From positions 186,001 through 250,000 of the forward strand of contig JAHBXN010000002.1 in NCBI GenBank assembly GCA_019636475.1: a stretch of 64,000 nucleotides of DNA, in the 5' to 3' direction. The notes under the pieces are model-generated. The model had not been told where the DNA came from, did not search any database, and saw only the letters and a program-made list of their open reading frames with translations. The DNA comes from Phycisphaerae bacterium (GTDB lineage: Bacteria > Planctomycetota > Phycisphaerae > UBA1845 > UTPLA1). Shown piece after piece: positions 9,955 through 34,994 of the stretch; the first letter of the stretch is position 1, and every line of letters starts with the position of its first letter. The position numbers and the translations under genes are program-made.

Positions 9955-12087
9955 ATGATTAAGACGCTACGGGTTCACAGCAAGAAAATCATGGTGGGCC
10001 TCGTTCTGTTCGCCATGTTTTCCTTCGTCGGCGGTTCTGCTTTGACTTCCTGCTTTCAGCAGCGAGCCAGCGACATCCTGGTCATGCGCTGCTACGGCGA
10101 GACCCTCAATTTGCAGGATCTCAATGCAGCACAGGCCGATACCGAAATCCTCGGGCGCCTGATGTTCGATTGGAGAAACGGCCGGGGCGATGAAATCGAT
10201 GTCCGTCATTGGCTGATGCTCTCGAAAGAAGCGGAGCGGGCCGGCATCACGATCTCCTCCGCGGACGTGAACAGAGTTCTCGAACAACGCGAATCCATGC
10301 TGGTTCAATTCAACGCCGGAACGCTTGCCGACATTCGCAAGCAACTGCGTGTCTCGCTTTCGGCCATGCAGGCGGCCGTTGCGCGACAGATGGCGATCGG
10401 GGAGTATTTCGAACGCATTCGCCTGGCGTCGATGCCGTCCGAGCCACAGGTGAAGCACTATGTGCAGGCAACCGAAGACAAAATAAACGTCGGCTTCGTG
10501 GCGCTCAAAGCCGACCAGTTCATCGACAACAACGAGCCCGTCTCCGCCGAGGACGCGGCGGCGCAGTTTGCAAAGTACAAGGACGTGCTGCCGGCCGACA
10601 GCCCTGACGGTTTCGGATACAAGCATCCGCAACGCGTGAGGCTTCAGTACGTTGCCGCGTCGGTCTCAAAGATTGAAGCCCAGGTCAGCGTCACCGAAGA
10701 AGAAATCAAAAATCAGTGGAAGGCCAATCCGAACAAGTACATGAAGACCATCATGGTTGATGAGCCGGCGCCGGTCGACCCGGCCGCGACTCAACCTGCG
10801 TCGCAACCCGAGATGCGGCAGGTTCCCAAGCAGGTGCCGCAAACATACACCGAGAGCCGCGACGCCATCTCCCGCGAATTGAAGAAAAACAAGGCCGCAC
10901 GGCTTGCGCGTCAATTCGCATCGCGCCTCACCGAGGAACTTGCGAAACCCTGGGCAGATCTGAAGAACGACGAGAAGACCGGATTCAAGCCGATTCCTGA
11001 ATCGGTCAAGGACCCGGCTTTCCTCCGGAGCGTGAGCGCTCAACTGGCTGCAAAGTTTGGCGTGAACGTCGACTACAGCGAGACCGATTTCTCCTCAGAA
11101 GAGGATATCGCCAACGACTTCGTTCTGCGCGGCGCCGAAATGCCCGGCGATAAGGACACGCCCATCTCCTTGTCGGAGCTCGCGTTTCGAGTGCCCGGAT
11201 TCTTCACGCCCGAGGCCAACCGCGAATCTGACCTGCGGATGCAGTTATTCCAGACGCCCATCCTCCCGATGACGGTCGCCGGCCCTTCTGCCGGATTCGA
11301 AATTCGTGGAAACCAGCTTGTGCCCAAGCCCGGCGAGCCCGCCAACTACATCGTCTTTCGGGTCATCGAAACCCGCGACGCCCAGGCGCCGCTCGTCATT
11401 GACGAAGTAATGCCCAAAGTCGAACGCGACATTCGATTGCAGCGCGCCTTCGGCCGAGTGGAGCCGATCGCGAAGGAACTGTGCGCCGTCGCCTCGCGCA
11501 TCGGTCTCGACCTTGCGTTGACGCACTTCGAGGACTTGCGTGTGACACGAGGCGTTCGCGCCGTATCGAAGCCCGCGCCGTTCTCGCGCATGAGCCGAAT
11601 CACCGATCCCGCCGAACGGGAAACGCGCGCCCGCGAAAACCGTCCGATGATCGAGTATTCCGAGGTTGTCGGCGTCGGACGGGCGCCCGAGTTCGTGGAT
11701 GCCTGCTTTGAGATGGCCGCCGACAACTGGGCCCCGCCGATTCTGGACGTTCCGCAGACCAGTGCGGTTCTCGCCGCATCCACTCAGCCGGCGTCCGTAC
11801 CTCCACCGAAGGCCCGGGTGATCTCGATTCCCAAAACCAAGACGTGGTATGTGATCGAATTGCTCTCGACGAACCGCGTCAACAGCGACAACTACGAATC
11901 CGAGAAGCGCCAAGTCGCGTTCCAGACGATCATGGGCGATCGAAGCCTCGTCTCCCGGCTCCAATGGTTCGATCCCACCGCAATCGAGAAACGCTGCGAC
12001 TACAAGGACCTCGACAAGGACGCACAAGGTCGCTCTCGCATCGGCATGTACTCGCCCGCGCCGCAACAGCCGTTCAGTTTCTATTGA
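9955..12087 (+). CDS. Membrane-anchored SurA/PpiD-like periplasmic chaperone
   Basis: The 710-aa product begins with a short basic segment and one transmembrane helix (VGLVLFAMFSFVGGSAL), followed by a large extracytoplasmic part. The N-terminal arrangement (anchor, short strand ILVMRCYGETLNLQDL, then a helical SurA_N-like domain) is that of PpiD-type foldases that hold newly exported outer-membrane proteins. I cannot point to a clear parvulin active-site motif, so isomerase activity is doubtful. Two linkers rich in Thr-Gln-Pro-Ala interrupt the sequence near residues 280 and 605. It appears monocistronic. Confidence is moderate for the family and low for catalysis. Confidence 0.68.
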   Translation: MIKTLRVHSKKIMVGLVLFAMFSFVGGSALTSCFQQRASDILVMRCYGETLNLQDLNAAQADTEILGRLMFDWRNGRGDEIDVRHWLMLSKEAERAGITISSADVNRVLEQRESMLVQFNAGTLADIRKQLRVSLSAMQAAVARQMAIGEYFERIRLASMPSEPQVKHYVQATEDKINVGFVALKADQFIDNNEPVSAEDAAAQFAKYKDVLPADSPDGFGYKHPQRVRLQYVAASVSKIEAQVSVTEEEIKNQWKANPNKYMKTIMVDEPAPVDPAATQPASQPEMRQVPKQVPQTYTESRDAISRELKKNKAARLARQFASRLTEELAKPWADLKNDEKTGFKPIPESVKDPAFLRSVSAQLAAKFGVNVDYSETDFSSEEDIANDFVLRGAEMPGDKDTPISLSELAFRVPGFFTPEANRESDLRMQLFQTPILPMTVAGPSAGFEIRGNQLVPKPGEPANYIVFRVIETRDAQAPLVIDEVMPKVERDIRLQRAFGRVEPIAKELCAVASRIGLDLALTHFEDLRVTRGVRAVSKPAPFSRMSRITDPAERETRARENRPMIEYSEVVGVGRAPEFVDACFEMAADNWAPPILDVPQTSAVLAASTQPASVPPPKARVISIPKTKTWYVIELLSTNRVNSDNYESEKRQVAFQTIMGDRSLVSRLQWFDPTAIEKRCDYKDLDKDAQGRSRIGMYSPAPQQPFSFY

Positions 12088-12714: not shown

Positions 12715-12744
12715 TTGACTCTGAAAATCGGCTCTGACTAGACT
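12715..12744 (+). promoter_or_regulatory. Sigma70-type promoter of the structured leader RNA
   Basis: TTGACT at 12715-12720 (five of six matches to the -35 consensus), an 18-base spacer, and TAGACT at 12739-12744 (four of six matches to the -10). It predicts a transcript starting near 12750, exactly where the series of hairpins begins. Confidence 0.6.
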
Positions 12745-12938
12745 AGAGATGTCCGGCGAGTGCCCGATCGCATCGCCTCAAACATGGGCGAGGCGACAGC
12801 GATCGGCGTGCAGACCGGACCGAGCGATGCACTCCGTGCATCGGGCGTTGTGTCCGGCCGGTGACGGCCGTCGGACGGGTGAAGGCTCGACGCGCGACAT
12901 TCACTCATGCCCCGCGATCGAGGTCGCCGCCCATCACG

Positions 12939-12951
12939 AAGGAGGTGATCC
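12939..12951 (+). promoter_or_regulatory. Full-length Shine-Dalgarno complementary to the 16S 3' end
   Basis: AAGGAGGTGATCC is perfectly complementary over 13 nt to the conserved 16S rRNA tail GGATCACCTCCTT and is followed directly by ATG 12952, with ideal spacing from GGAGG. ATCAC (12933-12937) can pair with GTGAT (12945-12949), which would present the GAAGGAG core in a 7-nt loop. Confidence 0.8.
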
Positions 12952-12981
12952 ATGACGAGTGAGAGTAAGAAGCTGCTCTAG
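12952..12981 (+). CDS. Nine-codon leader peptide MTSESKKLL
   Basis: A minimal ORF (ATG to TAG at 12979-12981) directly behind the strongest possible ribosome-binding sequence. The peptide MTSESKKLL has no signal or known motif. It lies inside a transcript that has a good promoter and ends at a strong terminator, and its stop codon falls between two complementary repeats (12972-12976 and 12984-12989). That placement suggests that ribosome position, not the peptide, matters. No known leader-peptide family is recognised. Confidence 0.5.
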
Positions 12982-13028
12982 AGTGCAGCGACCGTGGCTG
13001 CAACACTCTAGGCAGCCTCATTGTTCTT

Positions 13029-13073
13029 GACCCGCCGGTGGCTGAGTCTCAGCGCCGGCGGGTCTTGTTATTT
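13029..13073 (+). terminator. Strong intrinsic terminator
   Basis: GACCCGCCGG (13029-13038) pairs perfectly with CCGGCGGGTC (13055-13064), with an additional inner stem GCTGA/TCAGC, followed by TTGTTATTT. It separates the structured transcript from the release-factor-like gene that starts at 13146. Confidence 0.85.
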
Positions 13074-13145
13074 AAGATCCCGACGCAGCCGATTCCGTGT
13101 GGCTCCTCGCACACTTCGCAACAAGGCAGCCTGAAACCCAAACAA

Positions 13146-13670
13146 ATGAACGGATCACGCGACCACTGGCTGCTGCAGTCTGACGACAATCTGCTTCGCC
13201 AGTGCCAGATTGACACCTATCGCGCCAGCGGTCCCGGCGGCCAGAAACGGAACAAAACCAGTTCAGCGGTTCGATTGCGGCACAAGCCCAGCGGACTGCT
13301 TGCCATTGCAGAAGAGAGCAGGTCTCAACACGAGAACAAGGCCAAGGCGTTGCGGCGATTGAGGATGGCCATCGCCCTGGAGATTCGCGTCGAATCCTCG
13401 GCCGCCGATCGCCATGCGGTCGTGGCGGGCGCGATCAGTTCGTCCGGCGGCATCGCGGTTCCGAGGCGTTCTCCGGACCGACCACGAATTATCGCGCACG
13501 TCATCGACGAAATCGCAGCCCACGGCGGAAGAATACAAATGGCGGCAGCATCGATCGGCGTCACGACCTCCCAATTATCGAAGTTCGTCTGCGACGACGG
13601 CAAAGTGCTTGCCGCGGTCAATCGCATTCGAAGCCAATTCGGCATTGGCCCACTCACTCAGCGAGAATGA
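13146..13670 (+). CDS. Release-factor-like protein with GGQ domain
   Basis: The 174-aa product contains an RF-1-type peptidyl-tRNA hydrolysis domain, with [20 protein letters not shown] at residues 26-45 including the catalytic GGQ at 31-33. The codon-recognition domains of RF1/RF2 are absent, as in ArfB or mitochondrial C12orf65-type rescue factors, so it probably frees stalled ribosomes. The C-terminal 75 residues are not ArfB-like and include a helix-turn-helix-like stretch near 131-148 ([18 protein letters not shown]). The start ATG 13146 lacks a Shine-Dalgarno; longer upstream frames would run through the terminator and are unlikely. Confidence 0.8.
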
Positions 13671-13824: not shown

Positions 13825-14202
13825 TCAGATACCGCCGCCGCCGACACCACCACCGCCACCGCCACCGCCGCCGCCGGCACCACCGCCGCCGCCGATGCCG
13901 CCCTGACCATCAGATGGCTGCGCGGGAGCATCGCCTCCGGGGAAGCCCGGAGGAACGTCGAAGAGGTCGCCATCGCCGCAGCCGAGCGGAATCGTGCAGC
14001 TCGGGTCAGCATTGAAGTCGGGCGTCTGAAGCAGGGGCCAGAGCAGATTGATCTGGTCAGCCGGCGAGCAGAACGTCAACACGCCGCCGCAGATCGGCAA
14101 AGACGCGGCAAAGTTGATGCAATTGTTGGCGAACAGGCTGCTGCCGGCGGCCAACAGGCCCAGACCGACCAACTTTCGCCGAATGCTCTTGTGCTTTCGC
14201 AT
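13825..14202 (-). CDS. Small exported protein with polyglycine tail
   Basis: 125 aa with a basic N-terminus and signal-like hydrophobic stretch (KLVGLGLLAAGSSLFA). The mature part carries five cysteines (CINF, ICGG, FCSP, SCTI, GCGD), then a Pro/Gln-rich linker and about 27 residues almost entirely glycine. GGAAGG precedes ATG 14202. No family is recognised. The gene that precedes it on the minus strand (14306-14593) is of the same kind: short, exported, Cys-containing and Gly-ending. The two may form an operon and could be surface or appendage components, but this is only inference. Confidence 0.65.
   Translation of the reverse strand: MRKHKSIRRKLVGLGLLAAGSSLFANNCINFAASLPICGGVLTFCSPADQINLLWPLLQTPDFNADPSCTIPLGCGDGDLFDVPPGFPGGDAPAQPSDGQGGIGGGGGAGGGGGGGGGGVGGGGI
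13831..13902. repeat. CCN/GGN triplet-repeat tract
   Basis: Imperfect trinucleotide repeat, mostly CCG and CCA on the plus strand, encoding the polyglycine tail of the small exported protein on the minus strand. Such tracts are prone to replication slippage, so tail length may differ between strains. Confidence 0.8.
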
Positions 14203-33891: not shown

Positions 33892-34994
33892 AAATCGGCA
33901 TTCTGGGCGGCGGCCAGCTCGGGCGCATGCTTGCGCTAGCTGGACACAACCTCGCCATCCGCACGCTGGTTCTGGAAGAGTCGGCTGAGTGTCCGGCTGT
34001 TAACGTGACCGATGTGCTCGTCGGCTCCTTCGAGCATCGCGGCGACCTGGAGCGGATCGCGGCCGCGTGCAGCGTCGTCACCTATGAGTTCGAGAACGTA
34101 CCGATTGAGGCGGCACGCTATCTGGCTGAACGCGTCCAGGTGTCTCCTCCGCCGCAGGCGCTCGAGTCGGCACAGGATCGTTTGCTCGAGAAGCGCCTTT
34201 TCCAATCGCTGGACATCGATACACCGGCATTCGAGCCGGTGGATTCCCGGAGCGACCTCGCCTCGGCCGTCGAGCGGATTGGATTGCCCGCCGTTCTGAA
34301 GACGCGGCGGATGGGTTATGACGGCAAGGGCCAGCGCATCCTGAACATTGAGAGCGACATGGATGCCGCATGGGAGGCACTTGGCGGCGTCCCGATGATT
34401 CTTGAACGATATGTTCCGTTTGACCGCGAAGTGGCGATCATCGCGGTTCGGACACGTGACGGATCGCATGCGTTCTATCCGCTCGTCGAGACCCGGCAGC
34501 GTGACGGCATTCTTCGGACGGCGGTCGCTCCCGAGCCGCGATGGACAGAGCCTCTCCAGGAGGCCGCGGAGACATACGCCGCGCGCCTGCTTGATCGGCT
34601 TGAATATGTCGGTGTGCTGGCATTGGAGCTATTCGAGCATGAAGGCTCGCTGCTGGGAAACGAATTTGCACCGCGCGTTCACAACTCCGGCCATTGGACG
34701 ATCGACGGCGCCGAAACCAGCCAGTTCGAGAACCATTTGCGAGCGATTCTTGGTCTGCCACTCGGATCGACGGCGGCAATCGGCCATGTCGGCATGGTGA
34801 ATCTGATCGGCGTCTTGCCGACACTGGAGTCCATGCTGCAAATTCCGCACGCCCGCGTTCACCTCTATGGCAAACGCCCGCGGCCCGGGAGAAAGATCGG
34901 CCATGTCACCGTTCGGGCCGACGACCCATCCACGCTGATCGCGCGGCTTGATGCACTGATCGAGATCGTACGACTGGCAGAGTCTGCGGACTGA
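33888..34994 (+). CDS. purK: N5-carboxyaminoimidazole ribonucleotide synthase
   Basis: 368 aa ATP-grasp enzyme that carboxylates AIR with bicarbonate and ATP. It starts [19 protein letters not shown], the family nucleotide-binding loop, then [23 protein letters not shown] and [18 protein letters not shown]. It overlaps purE by four bases, the standard arrangement of the two-step PurK/PurE route. Confidence 0.95.

Follow-up and report, generated by a model that had tools for sequence, protein, structure and literature searches.

A stand-alone structured RNA of planctomycetes with a long 16S rRNA complement and a minigene that ends within a hairpin

Positions 12715-13073 (+) of the window, by which we mean the whole 64,000-nucleotide stretch of DNA analyzed here, are, on sequence evidence, an RNA gene with a promoter, a structure of about 320 nt and an intrinsic terminator. 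The RNA combines a long complement of the 16S rRNA tail with a very short open reading frame, and it appears to be the founding example of a new, undescribed planctomycete RNA family. That this is a genuine family of stand-alone, translated RNAs is a conclusion we hold with high confidence, and what such an RNA may do is considered after the evidence for its structure, its minigene and its distribution. The features of the locus are as follows.

12715-12744 (+): sigma-70-like promoter, TTGACT at 12715-12720 and TAGACT at 12739-12744 with an 18-nt spacer, 9 of 12 consensus positions
12751-13073 (+): predicted transcript, 323 nt, its 5' end placed 7 nt beyond the -10 element
12761-12811 (+): hairpin P1 of the 5' domain, a perfect 8-bp stem plus a nested stem (predicted fold)
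12821-12847 (+): hairpin P2, arms CGATGCAC and GTGCATCG (predicted fold; similar hairpins in homologs by eye)
12853-12875 (+): hairpin P3, GACG tetraloop at 12863-12866 (covariation)
12863-12995 (+): probable loop-loop contact, A12864-C12865-G12866 of the P3 loop with U12995-G12994-C12993 of the P5 loop
12939-12952 (+): AAGGAGGTGATCCA, perfect 14-nt complement of the 3' tail of the genome's own 16S rRNA, an extended Shine-Dalgarno sequence
12952-12981 (+): minigene ATG ACG AGT GAG AGT AAG AAG CTG CTC TAG (MTSESKKLL*), nine codons and a stop, the stop lying within the next hairpin
12972-13016 (+): 3' hairpin P5, segments a 12972-12976, b 12985-12989, c 12997-13001 and d 13012-13016, apical loop 12990-12996 (GACCGTG)
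13029-13073 (+): intrinsic terminator, 10-bp stem 13029-13038/13055-13064 followed by the U-rich tail TTGTTATTT
13146-13670 (+): release-factor-like gene (RF-1 domain, PF00472, E = 4e-21), a neighbor outside the RNA system

The RNA gene and its occurrence in the order

A first-pass annotation of this DNA had described, for the interval 12715-13145, a structured RNA bounded by a promoter and a terminator of its own, carrying a minigene and representing either a leader or an independent small RNA. The structured RNA is borne out by the TTGACT-18-TAGACT promoter, the perfect stems, the 10-bp terminator stem and the homologs described below. The perfect stems that had been pointed out are present at 12764-12771/12799-12806, 12825-12832/12836-12843 and 12978-12985/13004-13011, each of 8 bp, and the minigene (ATG at 12952, TAG at 12979-12981) is backed by the homologs as well. 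The extent needs correction, the 3' end of the RNA falling at about 13073, and the 14-nt complement to the 16S tail is a feature absent from that annotation. The option of an independent small RNA is supported: neighbors are not conserved, promoter-like sites (at least 9/12) occupy the corresponding position in 69 of 87 homologous loci of the order, versus 4% of mononucleotide-shuffled segments, and terminator-like structures (score of at least 15) are found in 64 of the 87, versus 0.2% of such segments. A simple terminator scan passed over the terminator at 13029-13073, probably because the 16 nt between its arms exceed the loop limit of 8.

When 61 genomes were searched with the region by BLAST, relatives yielded clear partial matches (best 5.5e-27), and 12 loci read by eye alongside our own again show the promoter, Shine-Dalgarno sequence, minigene, GCAGCGAACGTGGCTGC-type hairpin and terminator. 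R1, a covariance model built on the 3' part (109 positions, 10 pairs), matched at E <= 0.01, its E-values being rough, in 88 of 114 genomes of the order, which are species representatives and many of them fragmented, and in 54 of the 65 that are of good quality. One locus in a good-quality genome (L231), without a Shine-Dalgarno sequence or start, was dropped, and the counts became 87/114 and 53/65. Each of these 87 genomes carries a single strong copy, and any second matches listed are close to the noise at about 20 bits. A convincing copy is absent from 27 of the 114 genomes, and when 14 of the 26 matchless genomes and four genomes with weak matches were searched again with laxer filters and judged by score, the best new match reached 18.6 bits. 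Two single-contig genomes of the same family, G002 and G013, are 96-97% complete and have no detectable copy. The level of noise can be read from the window itself, where R1 matches 34145-34253 (-) with 19.1 bits, antisense within a gene that we take to be purK. Since this match puts the noise near 20 bits, most of the 41 matches of R1 in the phylum are noise unless their sequence backs them. Phage-borne copies were considered and rejected: the 17-mer GCAGCGAACGTGGCTGC occurs in seven viral contigs, in none of which a Shine-Dalgarno sequence and minigene stand within the preceding 200 bases, and these occurrences were taken as chance.

Structure, minigene and relatives outside the order

The + strand of the RNA (324 nt, 12750-13073) folds with -168.7 kcal/mol, versus -135.5 +/- 6.7 kcal/mol in 100 dinucleotide shuffles (z = -4.9). 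The - strand departs from its own shuffles even more strongly (z = -7.9), so that energy alone cannot settle which strand is folded. The use of G-U pairs is informative here. P3 contains 116 G-U cells versus 9 A-C cells, an excess which argues that the + strand is the folded one; pairing b:c of the 3' hairpin has 31 versus 4, and a:d, with 28 versus 27, is uninformative on the strand. A functional - strand, that is, an anti-Shine-Dalgarno RNA, was rejected on these counts and on the promoter, minigene and terminator of the + strand.

P3 is the best supported element of the fold. Among 77 sequences its two parts pair in 93.6% and 96.0% of cells, and the pair with the highest mutual information lies within it (z = 17); in slid controls for P3 plus the loop-loop contact, paired cells drop to 24-54%. 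All nine of its pairs (9/9) have changed on both sides, so the RNA passes the check for compensatory changes that the first-pass annotation had proposed. Because P3 lies outside the search model R1, its covariation is independent of how the loci were discovered.

The 3' hairpin P5 is built of four mutually complementary segments (a = GCUGC, b = GCAGC, c = GCUGC, d = GCAGC). The minimum-energy fold of our locus has the pairings a:d and b:c, and the alternative a:b + c:d is possible. When the 55-nt segment of each order locus is folded, all 87 minimum-energy structures contain the nested arrangement a:d + b:c. In an alignment fitted to a:d + b:c, this arrangement pairs in 90.6% of cells and a:b + c:d in 98.0%. 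Covariation of a:d + b:c is modest, with 5 pairs changed on both sides versus 3.5 in shuffles (46 of 500 shuffles are equally high), and 72% of cells still pair when the arrangement is slid by -3 columns; two pairs extending a:d are prominent by mutual information (z = 7.6 and 4.8). The a:b + c:d arrangement has 3 such pairs versus 0.6 in shuffles and could be a mere by-product of the repeated GCUGC/GCAGC words. Conservation of the 3' hairpin and of the Shine-Dalgarno sequence is partly by construction, since R1 includes both and the loci outside the order were found through R1 or a Shine-Dalgarno pattern.

The loops of P3 and P5 likely form a three-pair kiss (A-U/C-G/G-C), a contact suggested by comparison and not proven. 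Of the 77 sequences, 62 have a GACG and 7 a GGCG tetraloop in P3, and the apical loop of P5 contains CGC in 7/7 sequences with the GGCG loop versus 1/62 with the GACG loop (Fisher 7e-9, a value overstated because only two independent pairs lie on starred branches of the RNA tree, in which the P3 loop changes about six times). At the kiss columns 73/273, 14 of 76 sequences are unpaired. In the 5' domain, ATGGGCG (12784-12790) could pair with CGCCCAT (12928-12934) upstream of the Shine-Dalgarno sequence, and comparable GGGC/GCCC pairs can be seen by eye in several homologs.

In the 4.4-Mb assembly, GGATCACCTCCTT occurs at exactly two sites, the 3' end of the 16S rRNA (SSU match of 1374 bits) and the complement of the RNA. 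Across 126 six-frame ORFs of the window, a rough baseline (150 codons or more, counting overlapping and antisense frames, with the first ATG or GTG as start), the longest upstream match to the tail is 8 nt, in one ORF, and the commonest is 4 nt. The complement has a median length of 13 nt (range 7-18) in the 87 order loci, all scored against the 16S tail of our own genome. Predicted accessibility of the Shine-Dalgarno sequence gave no signal (mean unpaired 0.37, versus 0.34 over the whole RNA).

The minigene that follows begins with GTG in 57, ATG in 17 and TTG in 13 of the 87 loci, 11 nt (62 loci), 12 nt (24) or 10 nt (1) downstream of the first G of GGAGG. It comprises 6 codons in 11 loci, 7 in 2, 9 in 41, 10 in 10, 11 in 22 and 14 in 1. 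The first in-frame stop takes only four distinct positions: a+7, as in our locus, in 72 loci, a-3 in 13, and other places in 2. In the other two frames the first stops are spread over 36 and 22 distinct positions, favored places being present there too (34 and 23 of 87). The stop at a+7 is kept in 4 of the 13 loci that already stop at a-3, versus 72 of 74 elsewhere (Fisher 7e-8, which is overstated, as the late group stops somewhere by definition and the independent changes are few). The early-stop loci call for about three changes on the RNA tree, and only two independent pairs lie on starred branches. The peptide itself is loosely kept: many end in a basic residue plus a few others, and peptides of the IGxLP type differ freely at their middle residue. 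We regard translation of the minigene as well supported by these comparisons.

The choice of stop codon is an observation in its own right. TGA ends the minigene in 3 of 87 order loci, versus 23 of 40 non-overlapping ORFs of the window (Fisher 1e-11). This avoidance within the order (e.g., L124 and L210; our own stop is at 12979-12981) looks as if codons of release factor 1 were preferred. In the relatives outside the order, TGA is used in 8 of 27.

These relatives were sought with the pattern AAGGAGGTGATCN{0,2}RTG, which matches in 54 of 392 phylum-wide genomes, our own included; a control with the reversed pattern gave 5 hits. The 58 distinct sites outside our genome divide into 37 that open ORFs of up to 20 codons and 21 that open longer ones. 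A terminator lies downstream at 17/37 short-ORF sites versus 0/21 long-ORF sites, and an upstream hairpin with a G[A/G]CG loop is present at 25/37 versus 5/21. We accepted 27 relatives by eye, namely 24 of the 37 short sites and three loci with a variant Shine-Dalgarno sequence found through R1. The near-duplicates L142, L150 and L271 were left out; of the remaining 10 short sites, L309, L312 and L314 are also relative-like and seven are not. The 27 carry 12 family codes, which puts relatives of the RNA in at least 12 families besides our own. L312 and L314 (G420 and G457; family code f39), in large near-complete genomes, are likely relatives, and the RNA family may extend further in the phylum.

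Minigenes of the 27 relatives have 10-19 codons, and the other two frames run for 0-525; a short ORF was a selection criterion, so a count of 27/27 is partly by construction. No such selection lies behind the 37:21 split or the contrast in terminators. In 21/27 a stem of four or more pairs can be placed around the stop, a count made without a control. Among these 27, the kiss was not found and the 3' hairpin is unlike that of the order; a joint alignment of the order with the other classes was too poor for a model. The motif CCGACGGG is frequent after the stop hairpin outside the order (L141, L144, L248, L257, L269, L309 and others), in the place taken by GAACGUG in the order; it may pair with the GCCC just upstream of the Shine-Dalgarno sequence.

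Neighboring genes and alternative readings

The first-pass annotation had placed the RNA as a leader before the release-factor-like gene, and at our own locus that gene, at 13146, is indeed adjacent and co-directional. A role as its attenuating leader does not hold up elsewhere. The RNA is absent, by pattern and by model, from the 80 best of 148 loci with homologs of that gene (flanks of up to 3 kb; the sole model hit has 10.3 bits and E = 0.61, which is noise), and a homolog lies within only 2 of the 114 RNA loci examined (87 in the order and 27 others), our own and a partial match in L196. Orientation could be assigned in 68 order loci. The nearest downstream ORF shares the strand of the RNA in 30 of them, lies opposite to it in 33 and was not seen in 5, and the largest shared downstream family accounts for 6 of the 68. 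Leadership of this gene as the function of the family is refuted by these three lines, and we give it scarcely any credence; species-specific read-through into the gene may occur. Two further ORFs flank the pair. Next to the release-factor-like gene, 13825-14202 (-) is an ORF with a glycine-rich low-complexity tail; upstream, a large ORF at 9955-12087 (+) resembles SurA at its N terminus with a match below threshold (PF13623, 24 bits versus a cut-off of 28.5).

Strong folding of the - strand is what might be cited for a chance fold of GC-rich DNA without any gene, a reading to which we assign practically no probability, as homology, covariation, strand-specific use of G-U pairs and conserved stop positions refute it. 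A small ORF on a structured RNA also recalls type I toxin-antitoxin systems or other peptide-toxin RNAs; such RNAs fit poorly with single copies in most of the order's genomes and with a short peptide that by eye is not hydrophobic, and we consider this origin very improbable. An mRNA for a functional micropeptide of about ten residues, with the structure protecting or regulating it, deserves more attention. The minigene is present in 87/87 order loci and in the accepted relatives (where a short ORF was partly a selection criterion), many peptides have K or R shortly before the stop by eye, and C-[TS]-[KRM] is seen in 13/114 loci, its Thr codon showing some synonymous variation (ACG 8, ACC 2, ACT 1). 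Yet the Cys codon is TGT in 13/13, the middle residue of the IGxLP type is R, G, W, M, E, T or L, the length ranges from 6 to 19 codons and the starts are mostly not ATG, and we judge a micropeptide to be an improbable explanation.

In another reading, binding of the 16S tail would itself be the function. The RNA would tie up 30S subunits as a sponge or hibernation factor, a ribosomal counterpart of 6S RNA, and the minigene would serve just to clear ribosomes. The 14-nt complement exceeds that of all 126 six-frame ORFs of the window, and the predominance of GTG starts (57/87, with ATG in 17/87) may fit slow initiation rather than output of a peptide. Planctomycetes are also listed among the phyla that have species with small fractions of Shine-Dalgarno genes in a paper whose tables include one planctomycete (PMC5397173). 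However, a decoy has no need for a kept frame or for a stop at fixed structural places, and we think this account unlikely, if worth keeping in mind.

Proposed mechanism and nearest known systems

The reading we put forward is that of a stand-alone RNA gene acting in trans as a ribosome-gated switch that senses translation; on the comparisons above, our confidence in it is evenly balanced. The extended Shine-Dalgarno sequence, with its long 16S complement, would recruit 30S subunits, and GTG starts would make their clearance slow. A ribosome would then read the minigene and reach the stop, which in most loci lies between segments a and b. Given the usual size of the ribosome footprint, a ribosome at the stop would cover a and probably b; it would thereby break a:d, b:c and the kiss with P3 and free c to pair with d. 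The conformation of the RNA, and hence the exposure of the conserved apical loop or of the 5' domain, would report initiation, translation and termination by the ribosome. As there is no gene in cis, the readout would have to occur in trans, with the RNA binding a protein, pairing with another RNA or sequestering the 30S subunits themselves. More speculatively, the RNA might be a housekeeping "probe mRNA" of Planctomycetota, whose shape is set by 16S pairing, translation of ten codons and termination in a hairpin and which would let the cell gauge its translation machinery; this broader idea is possible but doubtful.

Very few structured RNAs are known to interact directly with the ribosome while being conserved throughout a large group of bacteria, tmRNA being the standard example. 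The present RNA is free-standing, its fold incorporates an ORF of about ten codons, and its complementarity extends over most of the single-stranded 16S tail. If it does sense or park ribosomes, it would be a counterpart of 6S RNA at the level of translation, offering testable predictions for a phylum of unusual cell biology. A class that is both RNA and gene can be overlooked by ORF finders and by RNA libraries alike. The phylum is, moreover, one of those named as having few Shine-Dalgarno genes (PMC5397173).

The impression of the first-pass annotation that the RNA fits no recognizable family agrees with Rfam 15, which gave no match at gathering score in the window, nor one within the RNA of 19 homologous loci, where a single unrelated tRNA lies outside it. 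At E <= 10, five sub-threshold matches were found in the RNA region (E = 0.86 to 7.2), none of them credible. We found no description of the RNA in the open-licence literature. Another planctomycete candidate RNA is the Rhodopirellula-1 motif, in whose table row we take the "y" to mean cis-regulatory. That row, "? y ?", lists Proteobacteria and Planctomycetes without an Rfam accession and dates from 2010 (PMC2864571).

With tmRNA (RF00023) our RNA shares a structured body, a short reading frame and a link to the ribosome. It differs in having no tRNA-like domain or tmRNA match by Rfam or ARAGORN, and the true tmRNA is encoded separately in the same genome (G000:C4:4382-4733). 6S RNA (RF00013) is likewise a stand-alone RNA and binds a core machine, as is suspected for ours; the present RNA has no RF00013 match, possesses an ORF and a 16S complement, and 6S RNA resides at another locus (G000:C3:352155-352348, 46.8 bits versus a cut-off of 46.4). 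That the RNA stands in for a missing tmRNA, 6S RNA, RNase P RNA or SRP RNA was rejected, all four being found elsewhere in G000; the relatives tested exceed the cut-off for tmRNA in 15/16 genomes, for 6S RNA in 7/16 (14/16 at E <= 0.001), for RNase P in 5/5 and for SRP RNA in 4/5.

Dual-function small RNAs such as SgrS and VcdRP (see also PMC5521070) have their own promoter and terminator and a translated ORF. Our RNA resembles them at the sequence level in the first respect (69/87 and 64/87 order loci) and, by the comparisons above, probably in the second. Unlike theirs, its ORF has 6-19 codons and ends at or in the structural core, its ribosome-binding site matches most of the 16S tail, and it is present as a single copy in most genomes of the order. 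The leader-peptide attenuators and switches of the trp, erm and tna types share with it a strong ribosome-binding site, a very short ORF and a stop beside a hairpin of four mutually complementary segments. A short ORF over alternative hairpins is predicted for our RNA as well, the ORF ending just before the hairpin in 13/87 loci. In contrast to these attenuators, the RNA stands alone, with no conserved same-strand gene directly downstream, and its terminator is a separate element.
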